DNA from: Verrucomicrobiota bacterium
GTDB lineage: Bacteria > Verrucomicrobiota > Verrucomicrobiia > Opitutales > Opitutaceae
DNA: 32,447 nucleotides
Reading direction: 5' to 3'
Assembly: GCA_030604905.1 (NCBI GenBank)
Contig: JAUVVA010000036.1
Location: 1-32,447, forward strand
The notes beneath the pieces were generated by a model, which was not told the origin of the DNA, ran no database searches, and saw only the letters and a list, made by a program, of their open reading frames with translations. Positions 11,860 to 12,518 of the stretch are shown one piece after another; the first letter of the stretch is position 1; the number at the start of each line of letters is the position of its first letter. The translations under genes and the position numbers were made by a program.

Positions 11860-12047
11860 GGTCTGTCCGGCGTTCGGGGGGCCGCCTGTCCGCGGATGGC
11901 CGTGGGCTTCGTCGCCGTGGGCTTGGAGCTTGGCGGCCGCGCTCCGCGGGCGCGCGGGCGCGTTCGGGGGAGGAAAGCGTGGCCACGTCCGCTCCGGGCT
12001 TGCCGCGGAGGCGGGCCTGGCCCGTCATGCGGGGGTTCTTTGGAGAC

Positions 12048-12377
12048 GGGCCTTTAGCTCAATGGTCAGAGCAGGGGACTTGAGAAATCGGGTCGGCGGC
12101 GGCGAAAGCCGCCGTCAGTCAGGTGTAACTTCGGCGAACGGTTTAAACTCCCAACGCCGAGCCAAGCGGCGCGTGGCGTGAAAACGCGGCGCACCGAAGG
12201 TGTAGAGACTATAATCACCCGCCTAAAGAGCCGCGCCGCCCGGGTGCGACTCCATGGCGAAGGCATAGTCCGGACCACGAACGCGCGACGTCCCCGGCGG
12301 GACGCCGCGCGGCGGCGAAAGCCGAAGTGGTGCGCATAATCCCTTGGTTGCGGGTTCGAATCCCGCAGGGCCCACCA
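12048..12377 (+). tRNA. ileX: tRNA-Ile(CAU), intron-containing, CCA encoded
   Basis: Exons 12048-12080 and 12335-12377 join to a 76-nt tRNA. The acceptor arm pairs GGGCCTT with AGGGCCC, the D arm is GCTC/GAGC, the anticodon stem is GGGGA/TCCCT around loop CT-CAT-AA, the T arm is GCGGG/CCCGC around TTCGAAT, then come discriminator A and encoded CCA. The body closely resembles Escherichia coli tRNA-Ile2 (CAU, read as AUA after lysidine modification by TilS) rather than elongator or initiator Met tRNAs, hence the isoleucine call. Removal of a group I intron is needed to form the anticodon loop. It lies alone between the TMEM14-like gene and the convergent TRIC gene. Confidence 0.92.
12081..12334 (+). 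other. Group I intron (IC3-like) in the tRNA anticodon loop
   Basis: About 254 nt with no open reading frame, so no homing endonuclease. P1 pairs exon GACU (12077-12080) with the guide GGUC (12091-12094), leaving the expected U-G wobble at the 5' splice site; the intron ends in the omega G at 12334. P2 is a 9-bp hairpin capped by GAAA (12095-12116). P3 is GGTG 12122-12125 with CACC 12216-12219, P4 TCGGCG 12131-12136 with CGCCGA 12155-12160, and P7 GACTA 12207-12211 with TAGTC 12266-12270. The core segments AACGCCGAGCCAAGC, GAAGGTGTAGAGACTA and GAAGGCATAGTCC are, from memory, the same as in the Azoarcus tRNA-Ile intron. The boundary positions are inferred from P1, the terminal G and restoration of a 7-nt anticodon loop. 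Confidence 0.92.
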
Positions 12378-12518
12378 AAGCGCGCAGTGGCGGGCGCCCC
12401 CGCCGCTGAAACCGGATGGGGTGCGGGAGCCAAGCCGCCGCTAGCGGGGCTCGCGGCAGCGCGGGGACCAGCGCCGCCTCGCGCCGGATCGGGCTGCCCG
12501 CGCGAAGTGTGCGAGGGC

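Follow-up and report, generated by a model that had tools for sequence, protein, structure and literature searches.

A group I intron between U33 and C34 of tRNA-Ile(CAU) in Opitutaceae, in a gene that probably replaces a host tRNA broken by an integrative element

The window, by which we mean the whole 32,447-nucleotide stretch of Opitutaceae DNA analyzed here, contains a complete tRNA-Ile(CAU) gene (positions 12048-12377, forward strand) that is interrupted between U33 and C34. The insertion is a group I intron, an object of a class that is already known, but its site, its guide and its lineage are unlike those of the textbook tRNA-Ile(CAU) ribozyme of Azoarcus. Our overall reading, to which we assign a probability of roughly 0.7, is that this is an IC3-type intron and that the split gene is an element-borne replacement of a broken host tRNA, of which the window holds a retained copy. 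We know of no earlier report of the site, guide, origin and setting of this intron.

The split tRNA gene and the fold of its intron

Comparison with intronless genes of the same family located the interruption. Five such alleles were read for the sequence of the anticodon loop, which is CTCATAA in all five, and twenty more were fetched full-length; bases 1-33 and 288-330 of the query matched directly adjacent stretches. Because the exon matches are contiguous in the intronless relatives, the intron lies exactly at U33|C34, and the gene divides into a 5′ exon with tRNA positions 1-33 (12048..12080, in agreement with the span given by ARAGORN), an IC3-like intron of 254 nt (12081..12334) and a 3′ exon that runs from C34 to CCA (12335..12377), all on the forward strand. 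ARAGORN, one of the checks recommended in a preliminary description of this DNA, called no tRNA anywhere in the window when introns were disallowed; when they were allowed it returned the identical span and a 254-nt intron but named the gene tRNA-Ser(UGA), which we rejected because the anticodon in that call consists of intron bases. The folding energy of positions 12050-12378 is 4.0 standard deviations below that of shuffled sequences. The preliminary description had proposed a group I intron in tRNA-Ile(CAU) and an insert of about 254 nt between U33 and C34, and both proposals are borne out, the second to the base by the intronless relatives and the first by those alleles together with a 22-gene alignment and its covarying stems.

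The P1-P9 layout was drawn by hand and then scored on this alignment of 22 complete window-type genes, which excludes the partial loci L028, L029 and L033. The chosen structure has 60 pairs (P1-P9, P9b and three tRNA stems), and 99.1% of 1320 cells are paired across the 22 sequences. Two-sided changes occur in 16 pairs, and the covariation score is 0.196, compared with 0.042 or less for slid versions. Within the intron the two-sided changes fall in P2, P7, P8 and P9b. P2, which ends in a GAAA loop (12095..12116), has 8 of its 9 pairs changed on both sides and 94.9% of its cells paired; P7 (5′ strand 12207..12211, pairing with the 3′ strand at 12266..12270) has two such pairs and is 100% paired; and P8 (12220..12259) has one, a change from A-U to G-C in 5 of the 22 genes. 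In the P3/P7 pseudoknotted core, an invariant P3 5′ strand (12122..12125) pairs with its 3′ strand at 12216..12219, P4 encloses P5 between its strands (12131..12160), and the cells of P3, P4, P6 and P7 are all paired, as are 98.9% of those of P8. The P9 region (12275..12330) is made up of a stem (12275-12278/12327-12330), a variable hairpin and a GAAA hairpin (12313-12324). Since P1, P3, P5 and P6 are invariable, covariation lends no support to those helices. A similar extra P5 hairpin (CATTTC...GAGATG) was observed in L031 and L032, two Opitutaceae introns from different genera.

The splice signals are constant across the family. U33, the guide GGGUC and the terminal G of the intron (12334, 22 of 22 genes) show no variation in the alignment, while the base that follows U33 is U in 19 genes and C in 3 (L023, L024 and L031), which identifies U33, and not U34, as the conserved splice base. 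The 5′ strand of P1 is exonic (G30-A31-C32-U33, 12077..12080) and the guide lies at 12090..12094, both invariant in all 22 genes; the last four bases of the guide pair with G30-U33, and the helix ends in a U33.G wobble at the 5′ splice site in every one of the 22. One exception to P1 pairing, a C in place of A31, is found in L029, outside the alignment. From this anatomy and from the established chemistry of group I introns, we infer that the window intron is self-splicing. The guide would pair with G30-A31-C32-U33, the 5′ site being set by the U33.G pair and the 3′ site by the terminal G, and two transesterifications, as known from other group I introns, would restore the loop CUCAUAA. The ligated exons of the window gene are expected to read GACUCAUAAUC, and TilS would then modify the restored loop so that the tRNA reads AUA.

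The preliminary description had named the lack of an RF00028 match as grounds for refutation. No such match was obtained at the Rfam gathering score in the window or in its own genome, and a Rfam search of 531 bases of the window at E values up to 10 gave no intron match. However, at the gathering score RF00028 found only one of six control loci with tRNA introns and missed the other five, and its absence therefore does not refute the intron. Consistent with this behavior, the relevant passage of PMC6125680 states that a single alignment seemed unlikely to cover the diversity of group I introns.

Broken host tRNA genes, integrases and a common leader in relatives

The window lies on contig C205 of a genome (G000) that is 80.94% complete. 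A query with the gene matched 161 of 200 genomes of the same family, many of the listed matches being intronless genes, and the intron is present in at least 25 of the 200 (among the matches listed), including G191, which belongs to the same genus as the window's genome. Three of the carriers have partial loci, namely G039, which shows only the end of the intron at a contig end, and G195 and G126, which lack part of the 5′ exon. Among 387 genomes from across the phylum, intron matches (E up to 1e-12) were confined to six, all Opitutaceae, and in phage and plasmid collections the intron body was unmatched, tRNA 3′ ends being the sole matches.

When the 25 carriers were searched with an intronless tRNA-Ile for broken copies, both halves of a tRNA were clear in only three (G020, G113 and G131). 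Together with G227 and G136, which came from fourteen further genomes searched after the integrase search described below, there are five genomes in which the host's intronless tRNA-Ile(CAU) is split inside the 7-nt anticodon loop. In G020, ∼104.5 kb separate the 5′ part (bases 1-47) from the 3′ part (bases 32-76), an interval that includes the intron gene; in G113 the halves lie ∼65 kb apart, again on either side of the intron gene, and the acceptor stem that they make up, judged by eye, is perfect and differs from the one in the intron gene; and in G131 one 5′ part and two 3′ parts flank it. In G227, a member of the window's genus, the tRNA is split and the window-type intron gene is located on a different contig; in G136 the split halves are accompanied, on the contig of the 5′ half, by a gene with an Azoarcus-type intron at U36|A37. 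In every one of these genomes the core shared by the halves includes CTCATAA, and its length is 16, 11, 8 or 7, 16 and 16 nt in G020, G113, G131, G227 and G136, respectively. An intact intronless tRNA-Ile(CAU) was not found in any of these five genomes; six weaker matches from four of them proved to be tRNA-Lys(UUU) or elongator tRNA-Met, and the only intact tRNA-Ile(CAU) found carries an intron, which is window-type in four and Azoarcus-type in one. Two further candidate halves were discarded, one in G140 that is an intact CAU tRNA in a tRNA cluster and one in G014 that is a degenerate 3′ piece.

A tyrosine integrase adjoins the 3′ half in G020, G113, G227 and G136, the genomes with a core of 11 to 16 nt, and the integrases of G020 and G113 are related to each other. 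The G131 contig (C11) has no PF00589 match, and an integrase beside its halves was rejected: one 3′ half has a sugar transporter as its neighbor and a GH32 enzyme beyond that, and the neighbor of the 5′ half is an ISL3 transposase. The G020 integrase has homologues (E up to 1e-20) in 47 of 250 genomes. At 10 of the 30 integrase loci returned, a tRNA-Ile match spanning the anticodon loop lies within about 260 nt of the integrase, and 9 of these 10 (G020 included among the 10) are 3′ halves. The target is found in several states at such loci. G199 and G128 have an intact intronless gene in addition to a 3′ half by the integrase, which is the usual rebuilt state; G023 has both halves, one of them at a contig end, and no intact copy of either kind was found in it; and in G249 and G205 a 3′ half is within 1.5 kb of a U36|A37-type gene. 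In G126 the A31C change (L029) leaves a mismatch in P1 and a broken integrase adjoins the gene, so that this copy may be decaying.

The intron-bearing genes also share a leader. The heptamer GTTCTTT is located 6 nt before the tRNA in the window (12035..12041, forward strand). In the 30 nt upstream of the gene it is present in 21 of 22 window-type and 11 of 11 U36|A37-type genes and in none of 20 intronless ones; this count excludes three loci whose 5′ ends are cut or filled with N. The combined difference (32 of 33 versus 0 of 20) has a Fisher p-value of 1e-13 if kinship is ignored. The exception is G020, which has a truncated gene copy with GTTCTTT just upstream. Elsewhere the motif is rare: 4 of 64 viral genes have it within 60 nt, as do none of 65 other named genes. 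We take it to resemble boxA of rRNA leaders; a 16S start, and hence an rRNA leader for comparison, was not found in the fetched loci, PMC4807359, in the passages searched, supplied no sequence to compare, and a query for the motif in papers gave no match. Because both intron types have this leader, the intron-bearing genes look like one gene lineage.

In two carriers, G003 and G096, the intron gene stands 58 and 66 nt behind a TnsB-TnsC-TniQ set. Both also have an intronless gene, which starts 32 nt (G003, L212) and 31 nt (G096, L215) from a terminus-like CGACA accompanied by repeats that are unique to these sites within the 913 kb of fetched loci. We read these repeat-bearing termini, from their sequence, as probable Tn7-like ends; the other end of the elements was not found in either genome. 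The end repeats stop 31-32 nt before the start of tRNA-Ile(CAU), as if TniQ aims at that gene. A TnsB-TnsC-TniQ set is also present in G192, on the other side of the gene, and a TniQ end lies upstream at L049.

Two other comparisons were set aside. The intron loci have little gene order in common between genera, and since 20 intronless control loci are no different, gene order was dropped as evidence of mobility. With integrase and Tn queries, matches were obtained at 4 of 25 intron loci and at none of the 20 controls; this comparison is biased, the queries having been drawn from intron loci, and was not used as a test.

In the window itself, a scan of twenty ORFs found ordinary neighbors (a betaine-binding protein, a glycine transporter, LysR and others), with no integrase, transposase or split tRNA seen among them. 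Contig C205 has no PF00589 match, and no split tRNA-Ile(CAU) was found in the window's genome. Because no integrase or halves were seen in the window, the element history is documented for relatives only, and the window gene is most likely a retained replacement whose element is gone or was not assembled. In our reading, the Opitutaceae split gene belongs to a tRNA-Ile lineage that is marked by the GTTCTTT leader and is represented in part on integrative elements. Such elements would integrate at the anticodon loop of an intronless host tRNA-Ile(CAU) and so break the host gene, and the carried copy would take its place, as the anatomy in five relatives, one with the other intron type, suggests.

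One explanation for an intron in such a gene, which we advance tentatively and put somewhat short of even odds, is that these introns serve as integrase-immunity devices. The loop of the replacement gene would be cut in DNA and restored in RNA, two intron clades (CT|CATAA and CTCAT|AA) would have been recruited in one leader-marked lineage, Tn7-like elements 31-32 bp before tRNA-Ile(CAU) would carry the same gene, and the window gene would be a domesticated survivor. On this account immunity would arise because the intron hides the replacement gene from the integrase. We also considered the possibility that the intron is neutral, a phage-derived sequence that entered tRNA-Ile(CAU) in an ancestor of the Opitutaceae and was then inherited or lost, its presence on elements being incidental since elements often carry tRNAs. 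This is a credible alternative that we nevertheless doubt. Most of the 25 carriers have no element next to the gene, introns in tRNAs are common on viral contigs (64 of 91 stretches resolved to tRNA, some of the contigs perhaps including host DNA), and the intronless loci, too, lack a shared gene order, so that relocation is no sign of mobility. Against it stand the placement of the intron gene between two halves of the broken one in G020, G113 and G131, and the second intron type, from another clade, that also splits the loop within the same leader-marked lineage.

TilS makes a CAU anticodon read AUA. It is encoded in the window's genome, and in a check for a second copy, as the preliminary description had recommended, the window gene was the only tRNA-Ile(CAU) found in that 80.94%-complete genome. 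The description's view that splicing is essential is thus likely to hold here, with a sole copy found and TilS present, but is not general, because 2 of the 25 relatives (G003 and G096) also keep an intronless tRNA-Ile(CAU); in a third, G140, a tRNA cluster includes an intact tRNA with a CAU anticodon whose identity is uncertain. The cluster itself (L217, G140:C49, 1-1212) comprises six tRNA-like genes with unusual T-arms, one of them the intact CAU tRNA. That the window gene is instead dead, its intron no longer spliced and its role filled by a second tRNA-Ile(CAU) within the portion of the genome that the assembly lacks, is improbable. The incompleteness of the assembly and the additional intronless copies in G003 and G096 would accommodate such a loss, but the core, the splice sites and the tRNA body are intact and covary across the family, no second copy was found in the window's genome, and the intron form is likewise the sole intact gene seen in G135 (95% complete) and in the single-contig genomes G020 and G113.

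Origin of the intron

The passage of PMC6274277 on the Azoarcus intron indicates that its guide reads the anticodon CAU, and the Azoarcus site is therefore U36|A37. The preliminary description was thus correct that the site differs (U33|C34 here versus U36|A37), but its suggestion of an Azoarcus intron in which either site or guide had shifted did not survive, since both differ and the two introns belong to separate clades. The window intron resembles the Azoarcus pre-tRNA-Ile(CAU) intron (IC3) in its tRNA, its catalytic core blocks and the U.G at the 5′ site, and resembles Azoarcus-type introns, as seen in betaproteobacterial relatives, in its GAAA loops; it differs in the U33|C34 site, the guide GGGUC, the clade and a branched P9 region. 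The GAAA hairpins and enlarged P9 region that the description had offered as distinguishing features both occur in tRNA-Leu and tRNA-Arg introns as well and are therefore not special to this gene. With the tRNA-Leu(UAA) group I introns of bacteria and phages, the window intron shares its P9 architecture and core, and six phage members also have a U33|34 site and the guide GGGUC, whereas the tRNA is a different one and most bacterial members found sit at U34|A35.

A pattern scan of named genomes returned at least 118 stretches, 80 of which were examined as loci. Sixteen of these have a U36|A37-type intron in tRNA-Ile(CAU) (15 were called tRNA-Met(cat) by ARAGORN, and L056, with a damaged 5′ exon, was assigned to this type by eye), seven are window-type genes that come, by title, from Opitutaceae or Verrucomicrobia, and most of the others are tRNA-Leu(UAA). 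Introns with the same core were also found on IMG/VR contigs (loci L368-L456, e.g. L383, L403, L417 and L435), in 3 stretches with a narrow pattern and 91 with a broad one; 64 of the latter were resolved to tRNA by ARAGORN, although many of its anticodon names in this set are unsafe, some contigs are repeated and some may include host DNA. Six IMG/VR tRNA-Leu(UAA) genes have an intron at U33|U34 with the guide GGGUC in all six, and two contigs (L383 and L410) have tRNA-Ile(CAU) with U33|C34 and the same guide. A 2014 review (PMC3984707) states in the relevant section that every phage intron described by that date interrupted a protein gene.

In a tree of 108 intron cores, which are a hand-picked part of the loci and for which the bootstrap had not settled, the 24 window-type Opitutaceae introns form one clade (100/97), which nests (99/94) with the six phage tRNA-Leu introns at U33|U34 and a further pair of phage introns. 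A separate clade (96/99) contains the U36|A37 introns, 11 of them from Opitutaceae, along with another pair of phage introns; one U36|A37 intron, L081, falls outside it. Forcing the window-type and Azoarcus-type introns together cost 44.8 log units (AU p-value of 0.031, with L081 left out and the groups named after the first tree). The idea that an Azoarcus-type tRNA-Ile intron slid its site and guide by three bases, for which the shared core blocks and an earlier, smaller data set that did not reject a joint clade (AU p-value of 0.341) had spoken, is very unlikely given the separate clades in the larger set, the coexistence of U36|A37 introns of another clade in the same family and the different P9 architecture. 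Because the phage tRNA-Ile U33|C34 introns (L383 and L410) lie elsewhere in the tree, this site was probably reached more than once.

The nearest kin of the window intron are phage tRNA-Leu(UAA) introns at U33|U34. Because the guide recognizes the stem base GACU rather than the anticodon, any tRNA containing this motif could receive the intron, and our reading is that this property let it pass from tRNA-Leu to tRNA-Ile. The window tRNA might also be taken for tRNA-Ile(UAU), spliced as in tRNA-Leu introns after U34 and before A35, since U34 can wobble-pair with the first G of GGGUC, but this is extremely unlikely, as the intron would then end in C in place of the invariant G, the base after U33 is C in three of the 22 aligned genes and in L028, five intronless relatives have CTCATAA, and TilS is present.

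Several related introns were observed in the course of this work. Azoarcus-type introns at U36|A37 of tRNA-Ile occur outside Proteobacteria, in 11 of 252 Opitutaceae genomes (L336-L346). A locus from Fimbriimonadaceae (L112) has a group I intron between U34 and C35 of a tRNA that ARAGORN read as Arg(UCG). A non-viral tRNA-Leu(UAA) intron with an apparent U33|U34 site and the guide GGGUC is found in Gammaproteobacteria AqS3 (L106), on a long branch whose position in the tree is unsure. At L064 the tRNA-Leu was read as CAA, and the 5′ splice pair would be C-G instead of U.G.

Comparison with known systems

The anticodon loop of tRNA genes is a common crossover site for integrases, and immunity would offer a testable reason for the persistence of self-splicing introns there: the intron would remove the DNA target without loss of the tRNA. 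The Opitutaceae provide a natural bacterial comparison, in which a single gene occurs in split, rebuilt and intron-bearing form within one family. An open-access literature search found no paper on intron-bearing replacement tRNAs, which is a weak negative.

In mechanism, the arrangement most closely resembles the tRNA-dependent lysogeny of actinobacteriophages (PMC10865867). In the sections of that paper on integration, a tyrosine integrase acts at a short common core, the host tRNA is not rebuilt, a replacement of the same isotype is carried, and the known targets include tRNA-Ile2-CAT. Likewise, an intact tRNA of the same isotype lies between the halves in G020, G113 and G131, and an integrase adjoins the split tRNA in G020, G113, G227 and G136. 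The systems differ in that the replacement tRNA, in those sections, is described without a self-splicing intron, whereas the Opitutaceae intron cuts the crossover loop; in addition, the host phylum is another one. The authors also suggest there that the tRNA gene carried by an integrating plasmid might itself become the attB site of a second plasmid. If a replacement gene could be used as attB, an intron in its crossover loop would prevent the second integration.

Introns are also present in the tRNAs of Lak megaphages (PMC6784885), where the passage concerned calls them enigmatic, names no group I class and deals with other tRNAs. The immunity idea itself was proposed earlier for archaeal introns. 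As summarized in the part of PMC4090602 that discusses it, the proposal of Randau and Soll is that archaeal tRNA introns block integration and hide the tRNA from integrases. Their introns are spliced by proteins and lie in host genes, whereas here a ribozyme intron interrupts a gene that relatives carry inside an element.
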